Positions 1,901 through 39,978 of a DNA stretch of 39,978 nt are shown one piece after another. This DNA comes from Archaeoglobaceae archaeon (lineage in GTDB: Archaea; Halobacteriota; Archaeoglobi; Archaeoglobales; Archaeoglobaceae). The position numbers and the translations under genes are program-made. The notes under the pieces are model-generated. The model had not been told where the DNA came from. It saw only the letters and a program-made list of their open reading frames with translations, and did not search any database. Numbering within the stretch: the stretch's first letter is position 1; each line of letters opens with the position of its first letter. The stretch is from assembly GCA_030153385.1 (NCBI GenBank), contig JASKJN010000008.1, positions 1 through 39,978 of the forward strand, read 5' to 3'.

Positions 1901-1927
1901 TTTTAAAAACTAAATTGAATCTAAATT

Positions 1928-2440: not shown

Positions 2441-2441
2441 T

Positions 2442-5181: not shown

Positions 5182-5200
5182 AGAAAACAGCCATGGGATG

Positions 5201-5252
5201 GATATAAATCCCTTCTCGATCTCGAATAGAGATTTGATGTAAGATTTATATC
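5201..5252. promoter_or_regulatory. Divergent pyrE / mat promoter region
   Basis: GATATAAA at 5201-5208 is a TATA box read on the minus strand, about 23 bp before the pyrE GTG. TTTATATC at 5245-5252 is a plus-strand TATA box about 30 bp before the mat ATG, which is also preceded by a GGTGGT ribosome site (5275-5280). Confidence 0.6.
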
Positions 5253-5282
5253 TCCTTCGAGTTCAGGCATTCTGGTGGTTAG

Positions 5283-6479: not shown

Positions 6480-7602
6480 AATTTTCAACTATCCTTCTGT
6501 ATATCCTTGTCGCCTTTTTTAGCTCAGAGATGTATACGAATTCATCCCTTCCGTGCAGATCCCCACCTCCGGGGCCAAAGTATAGCGCTGGTATTCCGAA
6601 TTTTCTAACATGCCTTGTGTCTCCGACGCCCAAGGTGAAAACAGCCCTTGTTTTAAGCCCTTCAGACATTACCGCATCGGATACCACTTTAATGAGCATG
6701 AGATCTTTTTCCAGTGGAACGGAATCCGCAAGAATACCGTATGATGGCAGAAAACCGCATACAGTTAGCTTTACTCCTGTTCTTTTTAGAAAACCAAGAA
6801 TTTCATCGATGCTTATCCATGGAGCAAATCTTATGTCCGCGGAGACTCTGCAGTTTGGAGCGACCACGTTTCTCTTCACACCACCGCTGATCAGAGAGGG
6901 ATTGAAAACCGCTTCCCACGATTTCAATGCAAAGGGAATTCCAAGAGCTCCAAATAAGCTTTTGTAGGATTCATAGTTTCCCCTCAGATTTCTGAAGAAA
7001 TCAATCGCTTCGATTATGAACTGCGAAGCGCTGAAAATTGCTCCCTCTCTTGCATCTCTCACAGCTGTGTGTCCGTCTTTTCCCTCAAATTCCATGTCAA
7101 CCGCTAGGACGCATGCCTGAAGAACGTGTATCGAGTCACATCCTGTTGGCTCCCCTATTACCACCGCATCGCATTTTTCAGCTTCAAATACCTTCTTGAG
7201 CCCATTTCTGCCACCGACTTCCTCATCTGCTGTAAATGCAACCTTTAGCCCAATGCCGATGTCTGCAAGCGGAAGAACCGCGGAGCAGATCGAAGCAACG
7301 CAACCCTTTGCATCGCAACTCCCTCTACCGTAAAGCTTCCCATTAACGACTATAGGGTTAAGAAGCTCATCTTCACACGGAACAGTGTCCAGATGGGAGG
7401 AAATCATTAAAGTTTTCTCTCCCTTTGATATTTCGATCAGAAGGTTCTCTTTGCCTTCGCTGACGTAGTTCTTTGTTTTAAAGGAGGAAAAGAGTTTTTC
7501 AAGGAACTCAACTGCACTGGAGGTATATCCAGGGGGATTTCTCGTGTCGATCTTTACAAGGGCCTTTGTTAGCTCGACCTCATCTACTTCCAGTCCAGAC
7601 AC
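6466..7602 (-). CDS. M20 family deacylase (ArgE/DapE/LysK-like)
   Basis: A 378-residue di-zinc amidohydrolase. The metal-binding set of the M20 family is complete: SSHLDTVP (His70), YGRGSCDAKG (Asp97), the catalytic TADEEVGG (Glu127-Glu128), VIGEPTG (Glu151) and a C-terminal GPGGGDLHGRDEFV with the last His ligand. A dimerisation lid domain lies between residues about 165 and 280. Family members remove acyl groups from N-acetylornithine, N-acetyl-LysW-linked intermediates or N-succinyl-diaminopimelate; sequence alone does not decide which. The GTG start overlaps the nnrDE end by 19 bp, so it is translated from that transcript. A GGAGGTG stretch overlaps the start codon itself. Confidence 0.85.
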   Translation of the reverse strand: MSGLEVDEVELTKALVKIDTRNPPGYTSSAVEFLEKLFSSFKTKNYVSEGKENLLIEISKGEKTLMISSHLDTVPCEDELLNPIVVNGKLYGRGSCDAKGCVASICSAVLPLADIGIGLKVAFTADEEVGGRNGLKKVFEAEKCDAVVIGEPTGCDSIHVLQACVLAVDMEFEGKDGHTAVRDAREGAIFSASQFIIEAIDFFRNLRGNYESYKSLFGALGIPFALKSWEAVFNPSLISGGVKRNVVAPNCRVSADIRFAPWISIDEILGFLKRTGVKLTVCGFLPSYGILADSVPLEKDLMLIKVVSDAVMSEGLKTRAVFTLGVGDTRHVRKFGIPALYFGPGGGDLHGRDEFVYISELKKATRIYRRIVENFRRF

Positions 7603-8981
7603 CTCCTGAATGCTTCGGGAAGCATTCCAATTAATTCCATTGAAGTGTAGTTGTATCCGTATCTCTCAAGGCATAGATCTCCAGCGAAGCCATTAATGAA
7701 TGCTGATGCGCAGGCGGAGTGGAAAGCATCGTCAAGGCAGAGCAAAGCTCCGCATATTCCTGCAAGCACGTCTCCAGTCCCTCCTACAGTCATTCCAGCA
7801 TTCCCGGTTCTGTTCACTTTCGTGCGAAATCCATCGGTTATTATATCCTCCTTTCCCTTCAGAAGAATCACAGCTCCAATTTCCTTTGCGATCTTTTGCA
7901 AGTCTTTTGGCTCAGCATTGAAATTTTTCTTAAGCTCTCCTCTGTGCGGTGTCAGAATGCACTCAACTCCTTCCGGGATATTCTTTGTTATCCCTTCAGC
8001 ATCCAGAACAGCCTTCTTACAGCTTTTAAGAAGCTCTTCCACGAATTCCCTGAACTCCGGGTTATTCCCAACCCCCATTCCGATCACCGCAACATCGCAC
8101 TTTCTGACGATTTCCTCCGCTTCTTTCAGATTTCTTGGCGTGATTCTATCGCCTTTCAAACCTCTGACGATAAGATTTGGGCTGAAGCTTGCAACAATGC
8201 CCTTTATGCTTTCTGGCACCGCGGTGATGACTATATCCCCCCCAGAATGGTAGGCTGAGAGGCTTGCAAATGCGACCGCCCCGGTGTACTCTCCTCCCCC
8301 GATCACTGCAACCCTTCCGTGCATTCCCTTGTGAGCATCATCAAACCTCTTGTAAGTGGCAACAACATCTCCTACTCCGCAAAGTCTTTCAAATGCTTCC
8401 GGAATTCCTATGTCCCTTACAACAACCTCACCGCAGATCTCCTTGGCTTTCAGTATTCCGGGCTTCATTCTGTGAAAGGTTACTGTCAGATCCGCTTTAA
8501 CTGCTATCTCGTATTCGCCTGTATCAGCATTCAGTCCGCTTGGCACATCAACCGCGAGCTTGAAAGCTTCGCTACTGTTTATGATCTCGATTGCTCTTTC
8601 ATACTCTCCTCTCGGTCTTCCTGTGATTCCTGTGCCTAAGAGAGCGTCCACGATGATCTCTGCATCGCATTCAGAGATCTTCTGGATCCTGTATCCGGAC
8701 TTCTTCAAGATCTCGAAGTTCTTCAAAGCTATATCTGTTTTCGGTTCTCCTGCCAAGAATATTTCAACTTCGAATCCCTTAAGATGCCTCGCTGCAACGA
8801 ATCCATCTCCTCCGTTATTTCCGCTTCCCGCATAGATCGCAACCTTTCCATTTCTAAATCTGCTCTTTATCTCTTCAGCAATTGCCTTCCCAGCATTTTC
8901 CATCAGCTGAAGCCTGCTGAGGCCGAAGAATTCGCAGTTAAGGTCAATAATCCGCATATCCTTTGAGTTTATGGTTTCCAT
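7584..8981 (-). CDS. nnrDE: Bifunctional NAD(P)H-hydrate epimerase / ADP-dependent dehydratase
   Basis: A 465-residue repair enzyme fusing the two steps that restore hydrated NAD(P)H, damage that is frequent at high temperature. Residues 1-200 are the YjeF_N epimerase with the nucleotide-binding AGSGNNGGDGF (51-61), and VDALLGTGITGRPRG and VDVPSGLNADTGE further on. Residues 220-465 are the ribokinase-like dehydratase (CARKD) with HKGMHGRVAVIGG, LDAEGI, LTPHRGEL and the C-terminal NAGMTVGGTGDVLAG anion hole. The two-domain order is the usual prokaryotic Nnr fusion. It is first in a two-gene unit with the M20 deacylase. The ATG at 8981 is divergent from the small gene at 9057. Confidence 0.95.
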   Translation of the reverse strand: METINSKDMRIIDLNCEFFGLSRLQLMENAGKAIAEEIKSRFRNGKVAIYAGSGNNGGDGFVAARHLKGFEVEIFLAGEPKTDIALKNFEILKKSGYRIQKISECDAEIIVDALLGTGITGRPRGEYERAIEIINSSEAFKLAVDVPSGLNADTGEYEIAVKADLTVTFHRMKPGILKAKEICGEVVVRDIGIPEAFERLCGVGDVVATYKRFDDAHKGMHGRVAVIGGGEYTGAVAFASLSAYHSGGDIVITAVPESIKGIVASFSPNLIVRGLKGDRITPRNLKEAEEIVRKCDVAVIGMGVGNNPEFREFVEELLKSCKKAVLDAEGITKNIPEGVECILTPHRGELKKNFNAEPKDLQKIAKEIGAVILLKGKEDIITDGFRTKVNRTGNAGMTVGGTGDVLAGICGALLCLDDAFHSACASAFINGFAGDLCLERYGYNYTSMELIGMLPEAFRRCLDWK

Positions 8982-9030
8982 CAGATTTTAATGGACTTTA
9001 AGCTTAAATTTTTTACCCGATCGCTAAAAA

Positions 9031-9038
9031 TTTATATT
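9031..9038 (+). promoter_or_regulatory. TATA box of the small gene at 9057
   Basis: TTTATATT is centred about 23 bp before the in-frame GTG at 9057. This favours a leaderless start there over the ATG at 8991, which lies upstream of the TATA box. Confidence 0.55.
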
Positions 9039-9056
9039 TGGCCTTTGAGAAATTCT

Positions 9057-9362
9057 GTGGTTTACAGTGGAAGGCACAAGACGGTAATCGGAGATCGTGA
9101 TGGTTTAAAGCTGATCGGAGAAATTCTTTCACACAGAGCGGTCAAAAGGGTGATTTTTGGGAGAATTGAGACCAAGGGGGCGAGAACTGGCCATGGGCTA
9201 AGATTCAAGATAACGAGGGTTGATGAGAAGGGAAATATAAGGGCAATTCTTTCCTATGGTTCCTCAAATCAGGAGATCCACATAATCACGACCGCATCAA
9301 CCAGTGAAGAAGGTATGAAGATAGCGGAGGAGCTCTCGAAGCTTTTTAAAAGATTTGATTGA
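9057..9362 (+). CDS. Small archaeal protein, DUF2103-like
   Basis: A basic protein of about 101 residues when started at GTG 9057 (123 residues if started at ATG 8991, whose first 22 codons lie across the promoter and look non-coding). The sequence GRHKTVIGDRDGLKLIGEIL, the patch VKRVIFGRIETKGARTGHGL and the end VDEKGNIRAILSYGSSNQEI resemble, from memory, the uncharacterised archaeal DUF2103 family. Some members have an N-terminal cysteine knuckle; none is present here. No function can be assigned. It sits upstream of the S17e and dapA genes with its own promoter. Confidence 0.6.
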   Translation: MVYSGRHKTVIGDRDGLKLIGEILSHRAVKRVIFGRIETKGARTGHGLRFKITRVDEKGNIRAILSYGSSNQEIHIITTASTSEEGMKIAEELSKLFKRFD

Positions 9363-9451
9363 CAGGACATTATTTCTTTCTTTAAAAAATTTGAATTTTA
9401 GTTCAATTGATGAGTGCGTAAAAGCTTAAATATCACGCGAGAACTGCGTTC

Positions 9452-9646
9452 ATGGGAACTGTAAAGCCTGCGTATATAAAAGTGATAGCGAACGAACTGC
9501 TCAAGAAGTATCCGGAAATGTTCACTTCGAACTTTGATGAGAACAAAAAACTCGTCTCACAGCTGACGACGATAGCGAGTAAGACCATTCGCAACAGGGT
9601 TGCCGGATATATCACGAGGAAGGTCAATCGGGGAATGAAGGGATAA
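9452..9646 (+). CDS. rps17e: 30S ribosomal protein S17e
   Basis: A 64-residue ribosomal protein found only in archaea and eukaryotes. [20 protein letters not shown] and the stretch [20 protein letters not shown] are the conserved helical core of S17e, and the length equals that of archaeal orthologues. It is a component of the small-subunit head. dapA begins two bases after its stop, so the two are co-transcribed. A TATA-like AAATAT lies at about 9427. Confidence 0.96.
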
Positions 9647-9648
9647 AG

Positions 9649-10518
9649 ATGTTTAAGGGCGTAATTCCCGCCCTGGTGACTCCGTTTAAGGAAGACTTCA
9701 GCGTTGACTACGACGGCTTGGCAAAGAACTTGGACTACATGGAAAAGCATGTGGACGCCTTTGTTCCCTGCGGAACCACTGGAGAAGCTTCGACTCTTGG
9801 CTATGAGGAGCACATTGAGGTTGTGAGGTTTGTTGCGGAGACCTCAAAGCTTCCAGTAATCGGAGGTTCCGGGTCGAATTCAACAAAAGAAGCAATCTGG
9901 ATCACGAAAGAGGTGGAAAAAGCTGGGGCAGAAGCTGCAATGCTCGTGACACCTTACTACAACAAGCCTAACGATGAAGGATTGCTTGAGCACTACAAGG
10001 CTGTAGCCAGGGAAGTTTCAATTCCCCTGATCGTTTACAACATTCCCAGCAGGACTGGAATAAACGTATCGCCGAAGCTAATGGCCAAGCTTGCAGAAAT
10101 AGACAACATAGTCGGAGTTAAGGAGGCAAGTGGCAACCTGAAGCAGATTTCGGAGATAATACGGATTGTGAAGAAGAAAGATTTCGTCGTTCTTTCAGGT
10201 GATGACTTCTTAACACTCCCGATCCTTGCAATTGGAGGAAAAGGAGTTGTGAGCGTCGCGGCGAATGTTGCACCGCATTTGATGAAGGAACTCTATAGAT
10301 CTTTCGAGGAAGGCAAAATTGCGAGGGCAATCGAGATCCACCACAGGCTTTCCCCATTGTTCGATGCGCTCTTCATTGATACGAATCCGATTCCAGTTAA
10401 AAAGGCAATGGAGCTCATGGGGCTTGCAAGTGGAAAGCCAAGACTTCCGTTAGTTGAACTGTCCCAAGAAAAAACTGAGAAGCTGAAATCCGTTTTGAAA
10501 TACCTGGGATTGATCTAA
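9649..10518 (+). CDS. dapA: 4-hydroxy-tetrahydrodipicolinate synthase
   Basis: A 289-residue class-I aldolase that condenses pyruvate with aspartate semialdehyde, the first committed step of diaminopimelate/lysine synthesis. The Schiff-base lysine is Lys158 in VGVKEASGN, the catalytic Tyr130 lies in IVYNIPSRTG, and the GTTGEAST loop is at residues 42-49. The length is typical. It follows the S17e gene by two bases. Related N-acetylneuraminate lyases and keto-sugar aldolases share the fold, but the overall match favours DapA. The M20 deacylase at 6466 could act later in the same route, though it is not in the same transcript. Confidence 0.93.
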   Translation: MFKGVIPALVTPFKEDFSVDYDGLAKNLDYMEKHVDAFVPCGTTGEASTLGYEEHIEVVRFVAETSKLPVIGGSGSNSTKEAIWITKEVEKAGAEAAMLVTPYYNKPNDEGLLEHYKAVAREVSIPLIVYNIPSRTGINVSPKLMAKLAEIDNIVGVKEASGNLKQISEIIRIVKKKDFVVLSGDDFLTLPILAIGGKGVVSVAANVAPHLMKELYRSFEEGKIARAIEIHHRLSPLFDALFIDTNPIPVKKAMELMGLASGKPRLPLVELSQEKTEKLKSVLKYLGLI

Positions 10519-10651
10519 TTCAGATAGAATTTTTGATAATATTTTAAGCTTGCTGAAGTTTATTGGACACAACCAGATATAAAGAAAAGTTTATAGATGC
10601 TTTGGAAGCCAGATTTCACTGCTTTTGGCTTTATTTTAAAAGATAAGAACG

Positions 10652-10722
10652 TGCGCGGACCGGGATTTGAACCCGGGCTAACGGCTCGGAAAGCCGTTGT
10701 CCTACCACTAGACTATCCGCGC
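10652..10722 (-). tRNA. tRNA-Gly(UCC)
   Basis: Read on the minus strand: acceptor stem GCGCGGA/TCCGCGC, D-arm GTC...GAC, a 5-bp anticodon stem ACGGC/GCCGT enclosing the loop TTTCCGA (anticodon UCC), a T-arm CCGGG-TTCAAAT-CCCGG and discriminator A. CCA is not encoded. There is no intron. A minus-strand TATA-like TTAAGCTTAA at 10741-10750 is about 24 bp upstream. Confidence 0.95.
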
Positions 10723-10779
10723 TTAAATAGCTGAGGGGCTTTAAGCTTAAAATTTTTTCGAATCTCATATTTTGACAGA

Positions 10780-10797
10780 GCGAAAAATAAAAATATT
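10780..10797 (+). promoter_or_regulatory. BRE/TATA element of the HerA-like gene
   Basis: GCGAAAAATAAAAATA at 10780-10795 is a purine-rich BRE followed by a TATA-like tract, about 25 bp before the ATG at 10817. The identical 16-mer occurs at 28029-28044 upstream of tRNA-Phe. Confidence 0.5.
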
Positions 10798-10816
10798 CTT
10801 TTGAAAAGTGATTTCA

Positions 10817-12307
10817 ATGAGAAGCGCATTGGGCAGGATCCACGGTTCCGCAACGTCTTTCGAATTCGAATTCGTTGTCACGAACTCAAAAAATGTGAAG
10901 AGAGGGGACTACATCAAGGTTTGGAATGACAAAGATGGTTGGGTTCTCGCACAGGTTGCAGACATATTGGCAGTGGACAATCCAAAGCTTTCTGAGATTT
11001 ACAGATCCAAAGAAGTTTTAATCGCAAAGGCAAGAGTTTTGGGGAAAAGAGAAAGTGGAAAACTAAGGATGCCCACAAGCCCCTTTATTCCGGGAGATAA
11101 CGTTTACTCCGCAGAGGACAGTTTGGTTGCTGAAACTCTTGGATTTTGCGAAGACGGTGTTTACATAGGTCTGCTTGGAGACACCGGCGTTAAAGTGAAG
11201 TTGAATCCGAATACCTTGGTTCAAAAACACGTCTGCATACTTGCAAAAACTGGTAGTGGGAAAAGCTATACCGCAGGCGTTATAATAGAGGAGCTTCTGG
11301 AGAGAAACGTTCCGCTTTTGATCATAGACCCTCATGGAGAGTATATCTCCATGAAAAAGCCCGGGAGGTTTAAGGATAACGAGTTTGGCGTAGAGCCGAG
11401 AGGTTATGCTGATAAAATAGTTGTTTACGCTCCACCTTCATCTCCTTTTATCAACTCTGCAGATAAAGAGCTCTCTCTCGACGGAATCAATCTTTCAGCT
11501 GAAGAGCTTATCGAGTTGAGTGGTTTGAGAAGTCCCACCGCACAGGCACTGCTTTACCAAGCTTTGAGAAACCTCAAAGATTACACGATATCCGATATAA
11601 TCGAAGAAGTCGAAAACATAAGGCACAGCGGAAAATGGACTCTGATCGGCGCTCTCTCGAAAATCGAAAATTCTGGGCTATTCAAGAGCAAACCTACGGA
11701 TCTAAGAACGCTCCTGCTCAGAGGAAAGGCAAGTTTGATAGATTTGCGTGGTATCGAGCCAGCATATCAAAATCTGATCGTTTCCAGAGTGGTTTCGAAG
11801 CTTTTTGAGCTCAGAAAGAAAGGTGAAGTTGAGCCAGGAATGATCGTGGTTGAGGAGGCGCACAATTTTGCCCCCGAGAGGGAGAAGACTGTAGCAACGA
11901 AGGTGCTCAGAAACGTTGCAAGCGAAGGCAGGAAATTTGGGCTCGGTTTGATGGTGATAAGTCAGAGGCCCGCAAGGGTGGATAAAAATATAATAAGTCA
12001 ATGCAACACGCAGATCATTCTTAAAGTCACGAATCCCAACGATATAAACGCTATAAAGAAAGGGATCGAGGGAATTACAGCGGAGATGGTTGAGGAGATT
12101 AAACGTCTTCCAACTGGAACCGCGGTTGTTGTAAGTCCTGAACTTGATGTTCCTGTTATCGTTCGCGTTAGAATAAGAAAAAGCCAGCACAGTGAAGCAA
12201 CAAGTGTGATGAAAGAGGAAGAAAAGGAGAAGGAGCCTGTATTGGAGGAGAACAAGGAAGAGAAAAAGGGATTTTTGAAGAGATTTTTCAGAAGTCGCAA
12301 ATCCTGA
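10817..12307 (+). CDS. HerA-like FtsK-family ATPase
   Basis: A 496-residue hexameric-type ATPase. Residues 1-95 form the beta-rich HAS-barrel, followed by an FtsK/HerA RecA-like core with Walker A AKTGSGKSY (Lys149), LLIIDPHGEYISM, and Walker B MIVVEEAHNFAPE (Glu346-Glu347). A sensor/arginine-finger region follows near ISQRPARVDKNIISQCNTQI. The C-terminus is a highly charged tail rich in E and K ending in a basic RFFRSRKS. Canonical HerA works with NurA in end resection beside mre11-rad50; none of these genes is nearby, so this is probably a stand-alone paralogue. I choose ATG 10817 over GTG 10808 because of the TATA spacing. Its last 20 bp overlap the convergent ATP-grasp gene. Confidence 0.88.
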   Translation: MRSALGRIHGSATSFEFEFVVTNSKNVKRGDYIKVWNDKDGWVLAQVADILAVDNPKLSEIYRSKEVLIAKARVLGKRESGKLRMPTSPFIPGDNVYSAEDSLVAETLGFCEDGVYIGLLGDTGVKVKLNPNTLVQKHVCILAKTGSGKSYTAGVIIEELLERNVPLLIIDPHGEYISMKKPGRFKDNEFGVEPRGYADKIVVYAPPSSPFINSADKELSLDGINLSAEELIELSGLRSPTAQALLYQALRNLKDYTISDIIEEVENIRHSGKWTLIGALSKIENSGLFKSKPTDLRTLLLRGKASLIDLRGIEPAYQNLIVSRVVSKLFELRKKGEVEPGMIVVEEAHNFAPEREKTVATKVLRNVASEGRKFGLGLMVISQRPARVDKNIISQCNTQIILKVTNPNDINAIKKGIEGITAEMVEEIKRLPTGTAVVVSPELDVPVIVRVRIRKSQHSEATSVMKEEEKEKEPVLEENKEEKKGFLKRFFRSRKS

Positions 12308-29843: not shown

Positions 29844-30463
29844 GAAGAAAAAATTATGTCAATTTAATAAACTTTTCGCAGTTTTTATCAACTGGGCTAA
29901 ATTTTTATATCTCCTGCCTTTGATGTCTCTTGCTATTCTCTTCTCTAATTTCTTCCTTTCTGAGCTCAGGACTTAAAGCCTTTTAACAGTAACAATTGCT
30001 TTGCAACATATCTTCAATTCTTCTGGGTCTACATCCAAGACTTCGAGGTTCATTCTGAGTCCACCAACGGTGGTTAGCTTTTAAAAGCTTCTCTTGCCAC
30101 ATAAACTTTTCCTGGATACTTCTTCCAAAAAGCTGTAATCCAAGAAGAATCGGTTGTAATCCTCAAAGGGTATTTCGGAGCTGAATCGAATTTAAAAGAT
30201 ATGTCTCGTCCCACCATTAATACCAACTGGAGGATTAGAAGGGCTATAGAAATTGCGCTTTTTATAAAACCATCAAGATGATAAGCCAGAAAATGTTCTG
30301 GTTAAAAAGAGATTTGGACATTTTATCTCTTCCATTCACCATGCTACACAAGTGGGATGACAACACAAAGTTTTTAAGTTCAAAGCTTAATGACTTTTCG
30401 CCTACAAATGCGTGTGTAAACGCAGAGGGAAAAATTTAAACTTCGCGTGAAAGACTACAATAA
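29844..30463. other. Gene-poor 620-bp stretch before tRNA-Lys
   Basis: No intact gene is visible. The stretch holds short broken minus-strand reading frames (listed separately), the hairpin CCACC-AAC-GGTGG (30061-30073), a perfect palindrome AGCTTTTAAAAGCT (30076-30089), and the tRNA-Lys promoter AAAATTTAAA (30431-30440). It looks like decayed sequence beside an integration site. Confidence 0.5.
29973..30335 (-). pseudogene. Possible decayed gene with three in-frame stops
   Basis: From an ATG at 30335, which follows GGTGA, to a TAA at 29973 there are 121 codons in one frame, broken by three internal stops. The pieces read like protein: IRFSSEIPFEDYNRFFLDYS, FLEEVSRKSLCGKRSF and a final LRMNLEVLDVDPEELKICCK. 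A second overlapping minus-strand frame is open for about 73 codons and reads LRITTDSSWITAFWKKYPGK, so past frameshifts are possible. No family is recognised. In AT-rich DNA a frame with three stops in 120 codons is not rare, so confidence is low. Confidence 0.28.
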
Positions 30464-30841
30464 GGGCCGGTAGCTTAGCCAGGAAGAGCGCGGGACTCTT
30501 AATCCCGCAGTCGTGGGTTCAAATCCCTCCCGGCCCGTCTCGGATTTTGATATTAAGACGAAAGCGGATTGAATTTGGTTTTTCGAGCCTTCCACGAGCT
30601 TCTCTATGAATTTTGAGATATTTGAGACGTTTTGTTTGAGCCAATCGTGAAGCTCTTTGGAAATCCTAACGTGTAAGTCCTTTCTGCTGGCTTCTTTTTC
30701 CGATTGGAGCCTTCTGACGGATTCCGATTTTGTTCCAGTTTGAACCATGTGGAACATATATTTTGAAGTTAAAAAAAGGTTTCCTGATGATTTCGCAGTT
30801 TTCTTTAATTTCAGAAGCTTTTCTGTCTCATTTGGGTTCAT
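30455..30841 (-). CDS. Putative N-terminal fragment of an SSV-type integrase, int(N)
   Basis: A 128-codon frame reading leftwards into and through the tRNA-Lys gene. Residues 1-100 are basic and contain a ribbon-helix-helix-like stretch (LHVRISKELHDWLKQNVSNI). From about residue 103 the sequence is translated tRNA antisense: GREGFEPTTAGLRVPRSSWL. In SSV1 the integrase gene contains its attP as an in-frame copy of the tRNA-Arg 3' half, giving a comparable PPGFEPGTSGSGGG; on integration the gene is split and int(N) stays attached to the intact tRNA. The position, direction and reading frame here fit that arrangement. The catalytic part (R, HxxR, Y) would be at the far end of the element. The alternative is an unrelated RHH protein whose frame happens to run into the tRNA. 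Confidence 0.5.
   Translation of the reverse strand: MNPNETEKLLKLKKTAKSSGNLFLTSKYMFHMVQTGTKSESVRRLQSEKEASRKDLHVRISKELHDWLKQNVSNISKFIEKLVEGSKNQIQSAFVLISKSETGREGFEPTTAGLRVPRSSWLSYRPLL
30464..30537 (+). tRNA. tRNA-Lys(CUU), probable integration site
   Basis: Acceptor stem GGGCCGG/CCGGCCC, D-arm GCTT...GAGC, anticodon stem CGGGA/TCCCG with loop CTCTTAA (anticodon CUU), T-arm GTGGG-TTCAAAT-CCCTC and discriminator G. The T-stem has a U-U mismatch at its second pair, unusual for an otherwise perfect tRNA. The TATA-like AAAATTTAAA is about 28 bp upstream. The accessory region begins at its 3' end. Confidence 0.93.
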
Positions 30842-30978
30842 GCTTTTAAGAATTCAGCAGATTCAGGAATTTAATAAAATATAAATGATGTTTTTCAACA
30901 TCTTTCGTGGCGACAATGCAAAACAGCAGTTCTTACTTATCGAATCCTTTTTTTCACTTCAACCTACTATCTCATATA

Positions 30979-31198
30979 ATGAGTGTAGCAGGTGGTTGTT
31001 GGGTAAGTGTTAAGGTTCCGAAAGAGCTTGCAGAGATCCAAAAAACAGCAAAAAACCAGCTACGTTTCTCATATGGGGTTTGTCAGATACGCAATCATAA
31101 GAAGCTTGGAAAAACCAAGAAACTGCTTTCGAACTCCAAGTTTGTGTTTGTGTGGATCTTGTTTAAGAGATGAGAAGGAAGAGGTGAATGGAAAATGA
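30979..31198 (+). pseudogene. Possible frameshifted ribbon-helix-helix gene
   Basis: One frame gives WVSVKVPKELAEIQKTAKNQ, the strand and first helix of an RHH (antitoxin-like) protein; a second frame a few codons later gives TSYVSHMGFVRYAIIRSLEK, which looks like the matching second helix. Joined by a frameshift they make a typical 45-residue RHH domain. Neither frame alone is a plausible protein: the first drifts into low-complexity sequence and the second lacks a strand. Probably the remnant of a regulator or antitoxin in the integrated element. Confidence 0.35.
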
Positions 31199-31230
31199 GG
31201 CTTGCAGAGAAATTATCTGCTTGCAGAATT

Positions 31231-31318
31231 CTTACAAACTGCAAAAACTTAATTCTATATTTATCTTATATTTCTAAAACTCTTACAAGTTATATATTCG
31301 GAAAGAGAATTGTTACAA
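31231..31318 (+). promoter_or_regulatory. CTTACAA repeats around a TATA box
   Basis: CTTACAA occurs at 31231-31237 and 31282-31288 and GTTACAA at 31312-31318, on both sides of TTATATATT (about 31289-31297). This resembles an autoregulated promoter for the DNA-binding gene at 31398. The transcript would have a leader of about 75 nt with a GGAGGA ribosome site (31386-31391). Confidence 0.4.
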
Positions 31319-31397
31319 GCAACAATTCTGAAAGCTTCAACAAAACTGTTTGGAAAAGAGCTTCTCTTTCTGTTAATACTATCTTGGAGGAGATTTT

Positions 31398-32015
31398 ATG
31401 GATAAGAAAACGATAAGCGTTAAGGTCGATTCTAAAGTCTGGCAGGACTTCAAGAACTACGTTCTTTCCAAATACGGTCAGCTTTGGCGTTTTCTGGGAC
31501 ATGAAGTTACGGATGCTCTGAAGTTCTACCTGTCCCATATCATCTCTGCATGCGATGCACAGATACACAGAAATCAGAAGGACGAATTTGCAGCAGATAG
31601 AAAAATAAAAAAGCATCATAAATTAATTGAGTGGATTTCGCAGTTCGAGGAAATACCGAGCTACGAGTTGAGAAAGTACATAAACGAGAACTTTGGAATA
31701 GATAGGAGAACTGAAGAGAAATATTTGGAGTATCTGTTAATGAATGGTTTCATAGAAGCTGTTGCTGAGAACAAGGCTAATGGCATCACGATTTACAGGG
31801 TTAACAACGAGATCGTAAACAAGTATCTAAACAAAGGGAAAAAAGAGCAATTCGAAACAGAGAAAGCGGATATAATCGAGTTTTGCATGCAGAGACACGA
31901 GATGGGGGATTCAATCAAGGAGATAAAAGACAAGCTTGCAGAGATGGGAACGGATCTTCCGGAGAAGGCGATAAGGAATCTCATAAAGAAGGGAAACAAG
32001 ATGGAAAATTTATGA
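31398..32015 (+). CDS. DNA-binding protein A: RHH-like plus winged-helix domain
   Basis: A 205-residue protein with a GGAGGA site before its ATG. Residues 1-50 (KKTISVKVDSKVWQDFKNYV) look like a ribbon-helix-helix domain, with HEVTDALKFYLSHI closing it. Residues about 75-145 resemble a small winged helix: HKLIEWISQFEEIPSYELRK, NENFGIDRRTEEKYLEYLLM. The C-terminal 60 residues (KADIIEFCMQRHEMGDSIKE) form another helical, HTH-like unit absent from its neighbour. The next gene, at 32043, is a shorter paralogue with the same first two domains. The family is not one I recognise. Its place beside an iteron-like array suggests a replication, copy-control or partition role in the element; this is inference. 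Confidence 0.68.
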   Translation: MDKKTISVKVDSKVWQDFKNYVLSKYGQLWRFLGHEVTDALKFYLSHIISACDAQIHRNQKDEFAADRKIKKHHKLIEWISQFEEIPSYELRKYINENFGIDRRTEEKYLEYLLMNGFIEAVAENKANGITIYRVNNEIVNKYLNKGKKEQFETEKADIIEFCMQRHEMGDSIKEIKDKLAEMGTDLPEKAIRNLIKKGNKMENL

Positions 32016-32042
32016 TTTGAATTTGAAAGGAGGTGTTTTTTG

Positions 32043-32462
32043 ATGAAGAGAAAGGTTAAGGCATGTATTTTGGTTGATGAAGATGTCTGGATTGAGTTCA
32101 AAAAGTACGTTCTTTCCAAGCATAGGAAATTGTACGGCTATGTTGGCTACGAGCTGTCAGAAGCGATAAAAAGATATCTGGAGAATTTTAGCGATTCCAA
32201 GGTTGAGAAGATGAATCCCAGACCCAAACATTTCAAGCTCTTGGTCTGGCTGGCGGAAAGGGATAAAGTTACGCATTCTGAATTAAAGGAGTTCATAAAC
32301 ATTAACTTTGGGGTAGATCCAAGAACAGAAAGGAAGTATTTCAACTATCTGACGGAATTCGGTTATCTGATCCCTTCTGAAGCAGAGCATGGCGATGAGC
32401 AGATATTCAAGGTTAACTCGGAAGCGGTAAAGAAGTTCTTAGAGAAGTTGAACTCAAAGTGA
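32043..32462 (+). CDS. DNA-binding protein B: shorter paralogue of the preceding gene
   Basis: A 139-residue protein (ATG 32043, with AAGGAGGTG ending 7-8 bp upstream). Residues 1-50 (CILVDEDVWIEFKKYVLSKH, ELSEAIKRYLENF) and 60-110 (FKLLVWLAERDKVTHSELKE, INFGVDPRTERKYFNYLTEF) match the neighbouring protein block by block, including YVLSK, NFGxDxRTExKY and the hydrophobic spacing. It lacks the third domain. It starts 27 bp after the first paralogue ends, so both are on one transcript. The tandem pair arose by duplication and divergence. The iteron array starts 48 bp beyond its stop. Confidence 0.68.
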   Translation: MKRKVKACILVDEDVWIEFKKYVLSKHRKLYGYVGYELSEAIKRYLENFSDSKVEKMNPRPKHFKLLVWLAERDKVTHSELKEFININFGVDPRTERKYFNYLTEFGYLIPSEAEHGDEQIFKVNSEAVKKFLEKLNSK

Positions 32463-32468
32463 TTAGAG

Positions 32469-32487
32469 TTCTTTTTATTTTTTATTC
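32469..32487 (+). terminator. T-rich terminator candidate
   Basis: A run of thymines (TTCTTTTTATTTTTTATTC) starts six bases after the paralogue B stop, the usual form of an archaeal intrinsic terminator. Confidence 0.4.
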
Positions 32488-32510
32488 AAACTGACATCAG
32501 CTGGAATGTT

Positions 32511-32785
32511 GATCCGAGTTAGAGCCGGATAAATCCGAGCTGTCGGATTGAGATCCGAGTAGGATGTTAATCCGGGCAATAGAGCTGGATCCAAGTTATC
32601 GGACTGTAAATCCGAGTCTGATTCAAATCAAATCAGAGTTAAATCCGATCTGATACTCGGATCTACAATCCGATAGCTCAGATTTACTTTGGGATTCAAA
32701 ATCGAATCTAATCCAAATCCGAGTAAAGTCAACTCGGATCAACTTTAGAAGTTACATTCTCAGTCCCAAATTGCGAAATCGGATA
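32511..32785. repeat. Iteron-like array of ATCCGAGT repeats in both orientations
   Basis: Core ATCCGAG(T/C) occurs at 32512, 32533, 32553, 32610 and 32717, with one-base variants at 32570 (ATCCGGG), 32589 (ATCCAAG), 32643 and 32669 (ATCCGAT). Reverse copies (ACTCGGAT, TCGGAT) lie at 32543, 32655, 32732 and 32779. Spacing is about 20 bp for the first four, roughly two helical turns, and then irregular. No hairpin or coding signal explains it. Such arrays next to DNA-binding genes are typical of plasmid replication origins or partition sites. Confidence 0.7.
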
Positions 32786-33150
32786 GGTTATCTTTGAGAT
32801 GGTAAAGGATTCAGAATCGATTAAAACAAGAGATTTGGAAAGTTGAAGGAGGATAAGGAAAATATTGTAAAAGAAGGACTCGTCTGTTGCTTTATACTTA
32901 GAAAGAAGATTTTTGAGTTAGACATTTACAGAAAAAACAATTTTTAAAGTACAGAAGTATATGAGAAACAGAACAAAGCAAAGGAGATCGAGTATAAGAA
33001 ATCCTCTAGAATTGCTCTATTAGCCTATTCAAAGTATGTTTAACTTTATCTAAGTCAAATCGATCAACGTCAGGCAGGAGGTTGAACGAAAAATTTTAAA
33101 AAAATGGATGTTACAGTGTATTGAAATAATTTTGAAAAGAGGGACGAGAA

Positions 33151-36100
33151 ATGGCAGATGACGATGACAGCGAATTAAAGGAAAAATTAAAAGAAAAGCT
33201 TAAGGAGATTTTTCAGTTCGAGAACGAGGATTTGGATTTCGGAATTTACAGAATAATGAACTACAAGCGAAAAGAGATTGAAGAATTTATTGAAAAAAAG
33301 TTAATTGATGAAATCAAAAAACAATTAAATCAGCTAAGTGAAGATAAAAGAAAAGAGATAGAAGAAAAATTAAATAAAATCTCTTCAAAAAATGGGGTTA
33401 AAAAATATCTTGAAGCGTTACAGAAAGAAGATACGGAAAGAGCGAAGATTTATAGAGAGGATTTTAAAGAAGACATAGAAGAATATGAAAAGTTGAAAAA
33501 GCAATTAGAAGAAGTTAAAATTTCAGAGGAATTAGAAAAAGAAATTTACAATCATTTAATTAATTTCTTCTCAAGATATTATGATGAAGGAGACTTCATA
33601 AGCATGAGAAGGTATGGAAAAAATGAGAGATATGTTGTCCCATATAATGGAGAGGAGATTTTGCTTTATTGGGCAAATAAAGATCAATATTACATAAAAA
33701 CTACTGAATACTTCAGGAAGTACACTTTCAAGGTTAATGGTAACTTGACCGTTAATTTCAGAGTTGTAGAGGCAGAAGAAGAGAAGGGAAATATCAAATC
33801 ACCTGAAAAGAAGTTCTTTGTTTTAAATGAGAAGGTTTTTGATTTTGATGAAATAAAGAAAGAGTTGAACATTTATTTTGAGTATAGAGGTTTAACAGAA
33901 GAAGAGGTTGAAAAATATAAGCACGGGCAGTCCCCATCCCAAGATAAAATAAATGAAGAAATAATACATCGTTTGAAGGAAAAACTCCCAGAAAATAGCC
34001 CAGCAAGATTAATCTTTGAGAATAAAAACGGGAAAACACTTATTGAAAAGCATCTTTACAGATATACGAGGAGAAATACGACAGATTACTTCATTCATAA
34101 GGATTTGAAAGGATTCTTGGAAAGAGAACTGGATTTCTACATCAAGAATGAGTTTTTGAATTTAGATGATTTAGGGGTTTTAGAGAAAAGCGAGTATTTT
34201 GACAAGCTAAGACTATACTTGATTGGTGCCAATGTTTTCAGGAATATTGCTTTAACAATAATCGAATTTTTAGCACAGATTGAAAACTTCCAGAAGAAAA
34301 TTTGGGAGAAAAAGAAGTTCGTTATTGAGACTCATTATGTAATCACTTTAGACAAGATTAAGGAGTATGCAGGAGAGGAGTTCTTGGAGAGAATCGTTGA
34401 TGAGATTTTGAACAATGAAAAGCAACTGGCAGAGTGGAAAGAGTTATTCGGGATAGAAGTTAAGAAAAAAGCGGATTTAATTGAAAAAAATACTCTTGAT
34501 GGAAATGAATGGAAAAAGCTGCCAGTTGATACGAGACATTTTGATGAAGACTTTAAATGGAGGCTACTAACTGCTTTAACCAAAAACAAAAATTTGGATG
34601 AGATTCTGGATGGGGTTTTGATAAAAAGTGAGAACTTCCAGGCGTTGAACTTACTTCTGAACAAGTACTATGAGAAAGTTCAGACGATATACATTGATCC
34701 ACCGTTTAACAAAGAGCAGGAAGCAGACTATCTTTACAAGGTAGGTTATAAGGACTCCACTTGGGCAACAATGCTTGAGAATAGAATAAGATTAGCAAAA
34801 GATTTGTTGAGTGAAAGAGGAAGTATTTTTGTTAGATGCGATTACAACGGAAACTGGATAGTAAGACCTTTGATGGATGAGATTTTTGGAAAGGAGAATT
34901 TTAGGAATGAGATAGTAGTCTCTAGAACAAAAACTGCTTTCTATCTTTATGCACCACCAGCCAACCCAAAAAATTTAAGTCCAATTTACGATAATATTTA
35001 CTGGTATTCTAAAACAGCCTCTTCCACTTTCTCAAACTTACGAAAAGGAATTACACCAGAGAAAAAAGATGCTTATTGGAAAGATTTCAAAACATTCTAC
35101 CCAAGAGAAGAATATAGATACGAATTATTAGGTATTATGCCTGAAGAGGGATGTAGTTGGATGTGGAAACAGGAGGAAGCAATAAAAGCAGCTGAAAACT
35201 ATCAATATTACAAGAGGGAGATCGAACCCAAAGGTATCTCTTTAGAGGAGTATTGGCTTCAGACTGGTAGGAAGCTCAAGTTCATAAAAAAAGAAGGGAA
35301 TACAATAAAATACTGGGTGCCTCCCATCAAGCCTCTTTCTCACAATATTTGGACTGACATTGAAGGATACGCTAGAGGATGGGGTTTCAAAACCGAAAAC
35401 TCCGAAATCCTTCTAAAACGCGTCATAGAATCTACATCCGACGAAGGAGATTTAGTTATGGACTTTTTCCTTGGTTCAGGCACAACGACAGCGGTAGCCC
35501 ATAAGCTCAGAAGAAAATGGATTGGTGTTGAGATGGGAGAACATTTCTGGACTGTCGTTTTACCGAGAATGAAGAAAGTTTTAGCTTATGATAAAACCGG
35601 AATTTCAAAAGAAGATGATGTCAAAGAAAGATACAACGAAAAAACTGCAGGAGGCTTTTTCAAATATCACCTCTTAGAACAATATGAAGATGCCTTGGAG
35701 AATATCGAATTTGAAAGACTGCAAAAAGAACTCTACGAGTTCTTCGATTACTTCGTCAAATACATGCTCGAATGGGAGACAAAGAATAGTAGCACGTTCC
35801 TTAACATAGATAAGATGGAAGATCCATTTAGCTATAAGCTGAAATTCATTGAGAACTATCAGCAGAAGATAGTGAACGTTGATCTGGTAGAGACATTCAA
35901 TTACCTTCTTGGTTTGAAAGTAGATAAATACAAAGTATTGTATGAAAACGGAAGGAAATATGTGTTTGTCTTTGGAGAGAAAGACGGTAAAAGGGTTTCT
36001 GTTGTTTGGAGAAGCATAGAAGATATTGACTTCGAAAAGGATAGGGAGATTATTGAGAAGACTATTAGAGAATCCAATCCAGATGAGATTTACATTAGTG

Positions 36101-36174
36101 GGGAAGCTTTGATTAAAGGATTCAAGCATATAGAGCCCGTATTTAAATCCCTAATGTTTGAAGAAATAAGTTAA
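33151..36174 (+). CDS. mod: Type III restriction-modification methyltransferase (Mod)
   Basis: A 1007-residue adenine-specific DNA methyltransferase of beta-class order. Motif IV is IDPPFN (Asp516-Phe519), the target-recognition region lies between, and motif I is MDFFLGSGTTTAVAHKL (from residue 770) followed by IGVEMGEHF. The N-terminal 480 residues are an extra, lysine/glutamate-rich helical region containing RYYDEGDFISMRRYGKNERY and YFIHKDLKGFLERELDFYIK, far longer than in classic Mod proteins of about 650 residues. The C-terminal 200 residues probably bind Res. A GAGGGA site precedes the ATG; res follows 16 bp later, and the two form the R-M complex in which Mod both methylates and gives sequence specificity. 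Codon use is strongly AT-rich compared with the core genes. Confidence 0.92.
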   Translation: MADDDDSELKEKLKEKLKEIFQFENEDLDFGIYRIMNYKRKEIEEFIEKKLIDEIKKQLNQLSEDKRKEIEEKLNKISSKNGVKKYLEALQKEDTERAKIYREDFKEDIEEYEKLKKQLEEVKISEELEKEIYNHLINFFSRYYDEGDFISMRRYGKNERYVVPYNGEEILLYWANKDQYYIKTTEYFRKYTFKVNGNLTVNFRVVEAEEEKGNIKSPEKKFFVLNEKVFDFDEIKKELNIYFEYRGLTEEEVEKYKHGQSPSQDKINEEIIHRLKEKLPENSPARLIFENKNGKTLIEKHLYRYTRRNTTDYFIHKDLKGFLERELDFYIKNEFLNLDDLGVLEKSEYFDKLRLYLIGANVFRNIALTIIEFLAQIENFQKKIWEKKKFVIETHYVITLDKIKEYAGEEFLERIVDEILNNEKQLAEWKELFGIEVKKKADLIEKNTLDGNEWKKLPVDTRHFDEDFKWRLLTALTKNKNLDEILDGVLIKSENFQALNLLLNKYYEKVQTIYIDPPFNKEQEADYLYKVGYKDSTWATMLENRIRLAKDLLSERGSIFVRCDYNGNWIVRPLMDEIFGKENFRNEIVVSRTKTAFYLYAPPANPKNLSPIYDNIYWYSKTASSTFSNLRKGITPEKKDAYWKDFKTFYPREEYRYELLGIMPEEGCSWMWKQEEAIKAAENYQYYKREIEPKGISLEEYWLQTGRKLKFIKKEGNTIKYWVPPIKPLSHNIWTDIEGYARGWGFKTENSEILLKRVIESTSDEGDLVMDFFLGSGTTTAVAHKLRRKWIGVEMGEHFWTVVLPRMKKVLAYDKTGISKEDDVKERYNEKTAGGFFKYHLLEQYEDALENIEFERLQKELYEFFDYFVKYMLEWETKNSSTFLNIDKMEDPFSYKLKFIENYQQKIVNVDLVETFNYLLGLKVDKYKVLYENGRKYVFVFGEKDGKRVSVVWRSIEDIDFEKDREIIEKTIRESNPDEIYISGEALIKGFKHIEPVFKSLMFEEIS

Positions 36175-36190
36175 AAGAAGGGGGATAAAA

Positions 36191-39100
36191 ATGGTGCTGG
36201 AACTCGAAAAACACCTTGTACTGAATAAATACTTCCTAAATCTCTTTGGTTTTGAAGACTTCAACGAATTAAGAGAGAAACTAAAAGATACTCAGGAAGG
36301 ATACGACTCCACAGGTAGAAGTTATTTTGTAGACGTTTTAATAGGTTTAAAACCTGAACCTGAATGGAAGAACTTACTTCTAAGATATGATGAAGCGATA
36401 AAAGAGTATGTTGAAAGACTAAGACAGAATAGAAGACAACCTAGTTTGAATCTTAAGTACTTCCAGTATTTAGCAGTTTTATTTGCAGAGATATTTCTAG
36501 ATAAATACTATAACGAAAGAGATAGATTCCTGAAGGAACTTAATGAGTTTTTGGAAAAATTCAACTCCAAAAACAGTAGCAAAAATAAAATTAATCCTTT
36601 CACAGAAAAGGATCTCAAAAAACTTGCTTTCTGGATGGCTACTGGAAGTGGAAAAACTCTTATAATGCACATAAACTACTGGCAGATTTTAAAGTACTCT
36701 AAAAACAATTGGGATAATATTATCCTTATAACTCCAAATGAGGGATTATCGAAACAGCATTACGAGGAACTGAAGTTAAGTGGAATTCCTTGCAAGCTAT
36801 ACGACGGAAATATAGATAGCCTAAAAACAAGAAATGGCGAAATTCTAATCATAGACATCCACAAGTTAACAAAAGAAAAAACTGGGGAAGGCATAAGTGT
36901 TGATATTTCATATTTTGATGGCAAAAATCTGGTTTTTATCGATGAGGGGCATAAAGGGCAAAGAACAGAAGAACAGAAATGGAAAAAGTTAAGGGAAGAG
37001 ATTGGAAAGGATGGATTTCTGTTCGAGTATTCAGCAACTTTTGGACAAGTTATCGGAAGAAATAAAGATCTGCTTGAAGAGTATGCAAAAGCAATAATCT
37101 TTGATTATTCATACAAATACTTTTACACAGATGGATATGGAAAAGATTTCTACGTTTATAACATTAGAGAGGACGCTTATACAGAAACTCAAAGAGATTT
37201 ACTGCTTACAGCGGGGCTTCTGTCATTTTACGAGCAGTTAATAGTATTCGAAGAACATAAAGAAGATCTAAGAGAGTATAATGTAGAGAAACCGTTATGG
37301 ATTTTTGTAGGAAGCAAAGTTTCTGGTAAGGGTATCAACTCTGATGTGGTTAGAGTAATTCAGTTTTTAGATGAGATATTAAGAGACGAAAATCACTTGA
37401 AAGAAAATATTGAGAAGATAATTAACGGAGAATCGGGACTCATAGATAAAGACGGAAACGACATTTTCAGAGGCAAATTTGAATTTATAAGAGGAAAACA
37501 AATTAACGAGATCGTTGAAGATATTTATCTAAAAGTTTTTGGTGGTAAAGGCAGATTAGAAATTTACGAAATAAAGAATGCTGAAGGAGAATTGGGACTT
37601 AAAACGACTACAGGAGAAAAATATTTTGGTGTTGTTAACGTAGGTGATATACAGGAGTTAAAAAAATTGATCAAAGAATTGGAAATCGAAGTTAAAGACG
37701 ATCATTTCAGCCAATCGCTATTTTTTGGAATAAATGAGAGTAATTCTCGTGTAAACATTTTAATTGGTTCTAAAAAATTTATTGAGGGTTGGAACTCTTG
37801 GAGAGTTTCAAATATGTGTCTGATAAACATGGGGAAAGGTGAGGGACCTCAAATCATTCAGCTTTTCGGTAGGGGCGTAAGGTTAAAGGGAAAGAATTAT
37901 TCACTAAAACGAGAAGAAGCTTCTGATTATAAACTAAAATTGTTGCAAACCCTTTTTATTTTCGGATTAAATGCGGATTACATAAAGGCATTTCTCGAGA
38001 CAATAAATAAGGAAGATGTGAATTATAGAGAGATTGCAATACCAATAAAATTCAACAGACCAGAAGCATGGGAGGAGAAAATTTATACAATTAAAACCAA
38101 AGAAGAGTTTGATTTTCTAAAACATCCTTTAAAGCTGGATTTTGACGAAAACATTTTGAAAAACATCAGAATAGACTTGAGACCAAAAATTACAATTGCA
38201 CATGGCTTAGAAGTGCAGAAAGCGGATACCGTTACCGATGAAGTAGACATACCGGACAAATACTTTGAATTGCTCAACTGGGATTCGATTTATTTAGAGA
38301 TTTTGAACTACAAAATCACTAAGGGGATGTTCAATTTAATAGTGGATAAGGAAATCATCAAAAAAATAGCAACTTCAAAGAAATACAAGATATCAATTGC
38401 TGAATCTCTGGGATTAAAAATTGAATATAATGGAAATAAACATTTATTGAGGATAGTTTCTTTTGATGGGATTAAAAAATTGCACAATTTGGTTTTACTC
38501 GTTTTGAAAGATTACATTCAGAAATTCTACAGACGGGAGGAGAAAAAGAAAACTATGGACTACCTGGAGGTAGAGCCTCTGAGAAGAGAACATTCTGATA
38601 TGTTTCCGAAAGATATCATTATCAAAATTCCGATGGAAATGGTAAATGATATAAAAGAAGTTATGGAACAGCTCGAGAAATATAATGCTGGAGAGCTTTC
38701 AAGCAAGTGGAAAGCAGGGGATTATTTCCTACTACATCTTGACAACCACCTATACACACCGCTGGTAATATGGCAAAAAAACAAGGAAGAAATAAAATCA
38801 GTCCCTGTAAAATTAAATAAAGGAGAAACAAAATTCGTAAAAGATTTAAGAGAATTCTTAAATAAAAATAAAAGTTTGTTTAAGGATATGGATATTTTCC
38901 TGCTCAGGAATCTTTCAAGAAGGGGGGTAGGGTTTTTCATAAGTTCTGGATTTTATCCAGATTTTATTATATGGATTAAAAAAGATAACAAGCAAAATAT
39001 GATTTTTGTAGATCCAAAAGGCATTAGAAATCTCGGGAATTTTAACGATGATAAAATCAGATTTTGCACCTCAGATATAAGGGAAATAGAGAAAAAGGTA

Positions 39101-39298
39101 AATGATGAGTTAAATAAAGAACGGAAATCAGAGATTTTAAAAATGGACGCATTTATTGTATCTGTATCTTCCTATGATGATATTAAAAAGACTTTTGGAG
39201 AAGGTAGTCACACAAAAGAAGACTTCGAAAAACGCAACATACTATTCCAAGAGGACGAAAAATATATTGAAAAAATCTTTGAAAAAGTGGCTTTCTAA
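36191..39298 (+). CDS. res: Type III restriction endonuclease subunit (Res)
   Basis: A 1035-residue SF2 translocase-nuclease. Helicase motif I is MATGSGKT (Lys155), motif II is the family-specific DEGH (251-254), and motif VI is QLFGRGVR (557-564), with KKFIEGWNSWRVSNMCLINM preceding it. The C-terminal nuclease shows the PD-(D/E)xK pattern: YPDFIIW (Asp924) and IFVDPKG (Asp941, Lys943). All catalytic elements are intact, so the enzyme appears functional. It would cut DNA at unmethylated sites recognised through Mod after ATP-driven movement. The ATG at 36191 lies 16 bp after the mod stop with a GGGGG-type ribosome site. AT-rich codon use matches mod and supports joint acquisition. Confidence 0.93.
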   Translation: MVLELEKHLVLNKYFLNLFGFEDFNELREKLKDTQEGYDSTGRSYFVDVLIGLKPEPEWKNLLLRYDEAIKEYVERLRQNRRQPSLNLKYFQYLAVLFAEIFLDKYYNERDRFLKELNEFLEKFNSKNSSKNKINPFTEKDLKKLAFWMATGSGKTLIMHINYWQILKYSKNNWDNIILITPNEGLSKQHYEELKLSGIPCKLYDGNIDSLKTRNGEILIIDIHKLTKEKTGEGISVDISYFDGKNLVFIDEGHKGQRTEEQKWKKLREEIGKDGFLFEYSATFGQVIGRNKDLLEEYAKAIIFDYSYKYFYTDGYGKDFYVYNIREDAYTETQRDLLLTAGLLSFYEQLIVFEEHKEDLREYNVEKPLWIFVGSKVSGKGINSDVVRVIQFLDEILRDENHLKENIEKIINGESGLIDKDGNDIFRGKFEFIRGKQINEIVEDIYLKVFGGKGRLEIYEIKNAEGELGLKTTTGEKYFGVVNVGDIQELKKLIKELEIEVKDDHFSQSLFFGINESNSRVNILIGSKKFIEGWNSWRVSNMCLINMGKGEGPQIIQLFGRGVRLKGKNYSLKREEASDYKLKLLQTLFIFGLNADYIKAFLETINKEDVNYREIAIPIKFNRPEAWEEKIYTIKTKEEFDFLKHPLKLDFDENILKNIRIDLRPKITIAHGLEVQKADTVTDEVDIPDKYFELLNWDSIYLEILNYKITKGMFNLIVDKEIIKKIATSKKYKISIAESLGLKIEYNGNKHLLRIVSFDGIKKLHNLVLLVLKDYIQKFYRREEKKKTMDYLEVEPLRREHSDMFPKDIIIKIPMEMVNDIKEVMEQLEKYNAGELSSKWKAGDYFLLHLDNHLYTPLVIWQKNKEEIKSVPVKLNKGETKFVKDLREFLNKNKSLFKDMDIFLLRNLSRRGVGFFISSGFYPDFIIWIKKDNKQNMIFVDPKGIRNLGNFNDDKIRFCTSDIREIEKKVNDELNKERKSEILKMDAFIVSVSSYDDIKKTFGEGSHTKEDFEKRNILFQEDEKYIEKIFEKVAF

Positions 39299-39388
39299 AA
39301 AATAATGAGATCTGGAAGAAGCTGAGAAGTGTAAAATGAAACAACAAAATTTATCAATAAGTTTTTTGGAAATAAAGCTGGTGATCAG

Positions 39389-39823
39389 ATGGGATACTGG
39401 CTCTGCATAACAACTGAGGAGAACTGGAAGGTGATTAAGGAGAAGAATGTTTTTGGTGTTCCAGAAAGGCACAAGAATACTATTGCTAAAGTTAAACCGG
39501 GCGACAAGCTTCTAATCTATCTGAAACAGGAAAATATTGGAGATGAAGTTAAACCTTCAAGGATAGTTGCTGTTTATGAAGCGGCTTCAGAAGCTTTTAA
39601 AGACTCTTTAAGGATCTTCAAAACTCCTAAAGGAATGGGGAACAAAAGCTTTCCTTTTCGCATAAACCTCAAGCCTGTGAAAATCTTTGAAAAGCCAGTT
39701 GAATTCAAACCGCTTATTCCTAAGCTTAAGTTCATAAAGAACAAGAAAAAATGGACTGGGCATTTAATGGGAAAGGCGATTAGAGAAATACCTGAAGAGG
39801 ACTTTAAGTTAATCGTTGGATAG
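39389..39823 (+). CDS. EVE domain protein
   Basis: A 144-residue single-domain protein of the EVE/PUA-like fold, which binds modified bases. The start [20 protein letters not shown], the pocket-strand [13 protein letters not shown], and [13 protein letters not shown] and [12 protein letters not shown] follow the EVE pattern, and the end [15 protein letters not shown] matches the C-terminal helix and strand. EVE proteins are often found beside restriction systems and may sense modified DNA. It lies 90 bp after res with a GGTGAT ribosome site, and may belong to the same defence unit as an accessory reader. Confidence 0.85.
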
Positions 39824-39827
39824 AACT

Positions 39828-39978
39828 ATGGTATTGATAAATGGAATTATAAAATTGCTCGATTTTATTAGCTTTATAGCTTTGAATTCTTGGAGAAAGA
39901 AGAGAATAATTACCTCTACAATAGTCATTATTGGAAGGGTCCTTGCAAATTTTTCCGTTCCACTTATTATCATGCCAA
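39828..39978 (+). CDS. Start of a membrane protein, cut by the window end
   Basis: An open frame of 50 codons from ATG 39828 to the end of the window, only four bases after the EVE stop. It reads MVLINGIIKLLDFISFIALN, then a basic WRKKR and a long hydrophobic stretch (IITSTIVIIGRVLANFSVPL), so it begins with an amphipathic helix and a membrane span. No family can be named from this part. Close spacing suggests co-transcription with the EVE gene. Confidence 0.5.
   Translation, partial: MVLINGIIKLLDFISFIALNSWRKKRIITSTIVIIGRVLANFSVPLIIMP

Follow-up and report, generated by a model that had tools for sequence, protein, structure and literature searches.

In the window, by which we mean the whole 39,978 bp stretch analysed here (one entire contig), repeats of the core ATCCGAG form a cluster that is real and far above chance, and the resulting array is part of a mobile-element family made up of islands and virus genomes that lie beside tRNA genes of Archaeoglobaceae. 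We propose that the array is an upstream transcription-control region, common to the islands and to the late-gene regions of the viruses; a reading to which we would give about an even chance of being correct. Both elements of this proposal, that the array is bound by protein and that it controls transcription, we infer from comparison of sequences.

Seven exact copies of ATCCGAG (five forward, two reverse) fall within 32512-32739, at 32512+, 32533+, 32553+, 32610+, 32656-, 32717+ and 32733-, out of just 11 in all 39978 bp of the window. Allowing up to one mismatch gives 15 copies in 32512-32784, and the 10 forward and five reverse among them are close to the approximately nine and four reported in a preliminary description, which had also correctly placed the array between the two RHH/winged-helix genes and mod, i.e. 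3' of the former and 5' of the latter (Table 1). The top 7-mer count per 240 bp reaches seven at the array, against a maximum of five across 200 Markov shuffles of the whole window. Gaps between the first forward copies measure 21, 20, 17, 19, 21 and 22 bp, such that the spacing of about 20 bp originally described, and read there as matching one face of the DNA, holds for this part; it does not extend to the array as a whole, where helical phasing over all copies is not significant (p ~0.28) and the copies beyond the first six are degenerate and irregular. Some adjoining copies combine into imperfect palindromes, one of them being AATCCGAGCTGTCGGATT at 32532. Neither an Rfam RNA match nor a TRF tandem repeat turned up in the array region, and no further ATCCGAG array lies elsewhere in the window's own genome. 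Among the Archaeoglobaceae genomes searched, three closely spaced copies of this core occur only in the window. Triplets of ATCCGAG in G093, G121 and G135 were set aside, as these belong to regular repeats of 12-30 bp that differ in composition.

Table 1. The repeat array and its neighbours; positions are those of the window.
Feature	Position	Strand	Remarks
int(N)-like fragment, predicted RHH-type segment	30455..30841	-	runs into tRNA-Lys in antisense; sister elements have homologous fragments at tRNA genes
tRNA-Lys (CTT)	30464..30537	+	presumed element attachment site
First RHH - winged helix - C-terminal helix-turn-helix-like protein	31398..32015	+	205 aa
Second RHH - winged helix protein	32043..32462	+	139 aa; without the C-terminal domain
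Repeat array	32511..32785	.	exact and <=1-mismatch ATCCGAG copies
BRE/TATA-like stretch	33086..33107	+	5' of mod; putative, picked out by eye
Type III restriction-modification methyltransferase (Mod)	33151..36174	+	
Type III restriction enzyme subunit (Res)	36191..39298	+	
EVE-domain protein	39389..39823	+	also in sister islands

The two RHH-winged-helix genes that precede the array are paralogous, with 39% identity across the part that could be matched. For the 205-aa product, an RHH, a winged helix and a C-terminal helical domain are predicted (mean pLDDT 75), and its fold matches in the PDB are to wHTH regulators only, all of them weak with none below E 0.001. Neither neighbour matched a Rep family, nor could a Rep gene be recognised anywhere in the window. 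On the far side of the array, the adjacent mod and res genes (MTase_III, 2.5e-164; REase_III, 2.3e-154) constitute a type III restriction-modification system. The EVE-domain gene that follows is a recurrent feature of the defence islands, where it often lies on the int(C) side (L113 11737-12069, L114 4642-5073, L120 8280-8708 and L377 16387-16830).

The array sits in a tRNA-integrated element rather than in a free plasmid. The N-terminal part of the int(N) fragment overlapping tRNA-Lys aligns with fragments in nine other elements, each of which lies at a tRNA gene or at the end of a contig, as expected for a split SSV-type integrase. The contig stops before the other end of the element, so that only one of its boundaries is known. 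The window's assembly yielded no second att copy; candidates in its own genome were rejected, having proved to be different tRNA genes or a tRNA-like site that is unrelated. Suicidal (SSV-type) integrase elements, e.g. SSV1, pTN3 and pT26-2, have been reviewed (PMC8371274). The window element resembles these in the overlap of int(N) with a tRNA, as do its sister elements in having an int(C) at the other end (Pfam Phage_integr_3, E 1.3e-29), with direct att repeats of 50, 45, 44 and 49 bp bounding the G010, G022 and G007 elements and the G023 provirus, respectively (for G040, a second copy is absent within 16 kb). It differs from them in that the cargo is a methylation-based defence operon plus a repeat array, and in that the window shows the int(N) end only. 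Elsewhere in the same genome (G000:C69; L105 1-132 and 7298-7810) there is a further int(N)-like fragment, which over 44 residues has 75% identity to that of the window, together with a degenerate integrase.

A homologue of the second RHH-winged-helix protein is encoded in 20 of 149 related genomes, and the surroundings of these genes resolve into three kinds of element: proviruses, defence islands and remnants. The proviruses (G013:C11, G023:C20, G024:C14, G039:C9 and the more distant G045:C28) carry RHH-winged-helix homologues, a packaging ATPase and a capsid protein. The ATPase is of HerA/FtsK type (PHROG terminase/head-and-packaging family, 3.4e-29), whilst the capsid sequence matches a PHROG head protein and has the STIV1 coat protein as its best Foldseek match (E 2.4e-11, with a low-confidence model); this STIV1-like capsid and HerA/FtsK-type ATPase are encoded together in G013, G023, G024 and G039. 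Equivalents were recovered by alignment query in Archaeoglobus MAG contigs JACDNU010000009.1, DAVR01000038.1, NZ_JACDNT010000028.1 and DACH01000020.1. A BrnT-like small protein and a split integrase are also seen in the proviruses (L118 4170-19001 with L056 to 12316, corresponding to G023:C20 ~194.2-212.3 kb; L053, L054 and L050). In their capsid protein and packaging ATPase the sister elements are akin to the STIV-group double-jelly-roll (pro)viruses TKV4, MVV and pTN3 (PMC5894146); however, capsid and packaging ATPase genes of this kind are absent from the window element (30455-39978) and from the islands, and the replication genes recognised in TKV4 and MVV have no counterpart found in the sister elements. 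Searches of plasmid and phage collections returned no homologue, IMG/VR held no relatives of the provirus capsid protein, and no paper on double-jelly-roll proviruses of Archaeoglobus was found in the open-access literature searched.

Defence islands carry type I restriction-modification systems (G010, G022, G032, G033:C9, G045:C33, G018:C181, G024:C31 and G045:C10) or other cargo, namely HmaA-like genes in G045:C19 and HmaC/DUF499 in G040; islands and proviruses co-occur in G024 and G045. The remnants consist of an array with int(N) or a tRNA alone, and one of them lies in the window's own genome beside a tRNA-Val (G000:C62; array and int(N) at L104 7941-8350), near PIN-type and CRISPR-associated-looking genes. 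Taken together, the array-bearing elements are a new variation on known integrated archaeal elements. The RHH-winged-helix gene was also encountered in head-tailed virus contigs (L128, IMGVR_UViG_3300005298_000024, 215-10859; L060 8650-9180), with terminase-, portal- and prohead-like genes by reading, and the regulator is therefore common to unrelated virus types.

Most sister elements contain a dense array of 5 to 24 exact copies, in both orientations, of a different core: ATCAAC. In many genomes of Archaeoglobaceae, such arrays accompany RHH-winged-helix homologues or int(N) fragments located at a tRNA; the anticipated arrays beside homologues of the two genes were thus found, albeit not with the ATCCGAG core, and the broader notion of a cis-acting multi-site array belonging to a mobile element is supported by these equivalents in tRNA-anchored sister elements. 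Same-strand spacings of ATCAAC peak at 10-12, 21-22, 32-33, 43-44, 54 and 64 bp, a period of ~10.75 bp, and both core and phase are kept across genera. As the ends of the window array contain GTTGATCCGAG and CTCGGATCAAC, its core may be a descendant of an ATCAAC-type array. ATCAAC clusters in G019 and G025 were discarded, being low-complexity or 12 bp-periodic stretches with no element context, and a ‘TGATGAA array’ in L051, which is mostly inside a coding region, was not counted as equivalent.

In the proviruses, the array is flanked by a thymidylate-kinase-like gene and by the zinc-ribbon membrane-protein gene that opens the capsid/ATPase cluster (ZnTM-ATPase-P795-capsid), and extends into the coding sequence of the latter as GTTGAT codons. 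In five type I islands, whose hsdM genes are related and which are not fully independent cases, it spans ~-62/-82 to ~-270/-360 from the hsdM start, with a TATA-like, AGAAAAnTAAAA-like box between array and ATG. Further cargo found 3' of an array comprises an HmaA-like helicase (G045:C19), a second type I system (G045:C10), HmaC/DUF499 (G040) and, in the window, the type III system.

Synthesising these observations, we suggest that the array is a cis-acting, multi-site protein-binding region of a tRNA-integrated suicidal (SSV-type) integrase element, positioned where the regulator genes give way to the operon that follows, which holds the late genes in the proviruses and is a methylation-based defence operon in the islands. 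In the most likely mechanism, an oligomeric DNA-binding protein encoded by the element or by a related virus would bind the repeats cooperatively along one face of the helix, and thereby control the promoter of the adjacent operon, here mod-res. We prefer control of the adjacent operon because the array is 5' of promoters in most islands, because arrays are retained in islands that have a truncated RHH-winged-helix gene or none, and because motif positions are conserved between G045 and G033, which differ at 0/102 motif versus 11/205 spacer positions (Fisher p 0.018). Set against this, motif positions in G010 and G022 are no better conserved than spacers; the G007 island, from the same genus, has an RHH-winged-helix gene and hsdM but no array; at G024:C31 hsdR and the RHH-winged-helix gene converge on the array with their 3' ends, a place where no cargo promoter is expected; and, in the window itself, ~370 bp separate the array end from the mod start, a larger gap than in the type I islands, in addition to the non-significant phasing.

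The main rival to transcription control is an iteron-like origin from which the excised element or virus would replicate, bound by the RHH-winged-helix-HTH protein (via its conserved winged-helix or C-terminal domain) or by a host initiator, which we hold to be a tentative possibility of appreciable but minor likelihood. Dense, phased repeats common to proviruses and islands, their location at the regulator/late junction, and the G024:C31 array, which is not at a promoter, would all be in keeping with an origin. The 18.1 kb G023 provirus moreover has no recognisable Rep, primase or helicase and should therefore need an unrecognised initiator plus a cis array, although P795, which is uncharacterised, could itself be a replication protein. 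However, GC skew has no switch at the window array, where the preliminary description had proposed to look for one; the persistence of arrays without an intact RHH-winged-helix gene, and the G007 island without an array, also argue against an origin, as does the fact that in most islands the array occupies the place expected for the upstream regulatory site of the cargo operon. Clustered repeats near the gene for a multi-domain DNA-binding protein are indeed reminiscent of iteron plasmid origins, but no Rep was recognised here; the archaeal origin of pRN1, for its part, is a stem-loop and not a set of iterons (PMC4234260).

Which protein might read the array can be approached through the operators of the RHH-winged-helix genes. 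The ~200 bp 5' of these genes (L050 260-459, L053 9707-9906, L059 8235-8434 and L128 15-214) have a common layout of TGCA boxes and a TATA-like stretch, but the repeated cores differ: TCTTCCA goes with the RHH strand KISVHV (G024:C14 and G022, weaker in G010), GCAGCCA with KIYIYV (G013 and G045:C28), GTTACCA with KIHVFV/KIHAYV (G039 and G054) and ACTCCAA with RIQIYV (viral contig L128). ATCAAC is absent from all of them, and the upstream region of the window's own RHH genes has no ATCCGAG within one mismatch. Since the operator core follows the RHH strand, whilst the array core stays constant (ATCAAC) in elements whose RHH strands differ, the RHH domain is probably not the array reader; on this correlation, drawn from few cases, the RHH domains of the two neighbours probably read their own upstream operators, and binding of the array by both proteins through these domains is not supported. 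Candidates for the reader are instead the conserved winged helix or the C-terminal domain, a further protein encoded by the element or virus, or a host protein. The palindromic operator cores vary in the manner of phage immunity specificities, and may be exchanged as one cassette together with the RHH domain.

These operators also bear on a partition or packaging site, i.e. a parC-like centromere bound by an RHH protein, or a packaging signal of viruses and satellite-like islands, which we consider rather improbable. ParR proteins of ParMRC systems (R1, pB171) are RHH proteins that bind direct repeats of 10-11 bp or 20 bp (PMC9426499). The ~10.75 bp steps of ATCAAC, near an RHH gene and 5' of an operon, are similar, and the array is common to islands and proviruses that co-occur in two genomes. 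Yet no ParM/ParA/TubZ-type partner NTPase was recognised among the annotated neighbours (int(N), RHH-winged-helix paralogues, mod, res and EVE), such that the partition site first proposed is not supported; changes in the RHH strand go along with changes in a separate, upstream operator and not with the array; the RHH proteins here have an extra winged helix and probably read that other operator; and packaging of islands is without any sign. In the omega repressor system, contiguous WATCACW-like heptads lie in both orientations near an RHH regulator. Those short repeats are comparable in orientation and setting, but the ATCAAC steps are of 10-11 bp rather than contiguous, and no omega-type partner gene is present.

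That the window array is a decayed or mutationally expanded repeat, now functionless, is the least probable account, as it is far above chance and related arrays retain core and phase across genera, despite its degenerate later copies and the vestigial ATCAAC arrays at G000:C62 and G053:C22.

Returning to control of the adjacent operon, we also entertain, as an improbable extension, that the islands are virus-derived satellites in which methylation-based defence operons replaced the late genes of an STIV-like virus whilst the late-gene control array was kept; the regulator of a related infecting virus would then switch the defence operon on, or its packaging machinery would mobilise the island. 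One common cis array and one regulator family, in any case, link the defence islands of Archaeoglobaceae to STIV-like proviruses. Should the array control cargo, defence genes would be run from a viral control region, giving viruses or satellites a route by which to pass on restriction systems. For hyperthermophilic archaea, where genetic tools are few, the elements also provide candidates for regulators, operators and att sites.

Finally, L107 contains two arrays with a common spacing pattern (8072-8457 and 9647-9846) around a nucleotidyltransferase/HEPN-like pair, an arrangement that suggests two elements stacked at one tRNA-Val.
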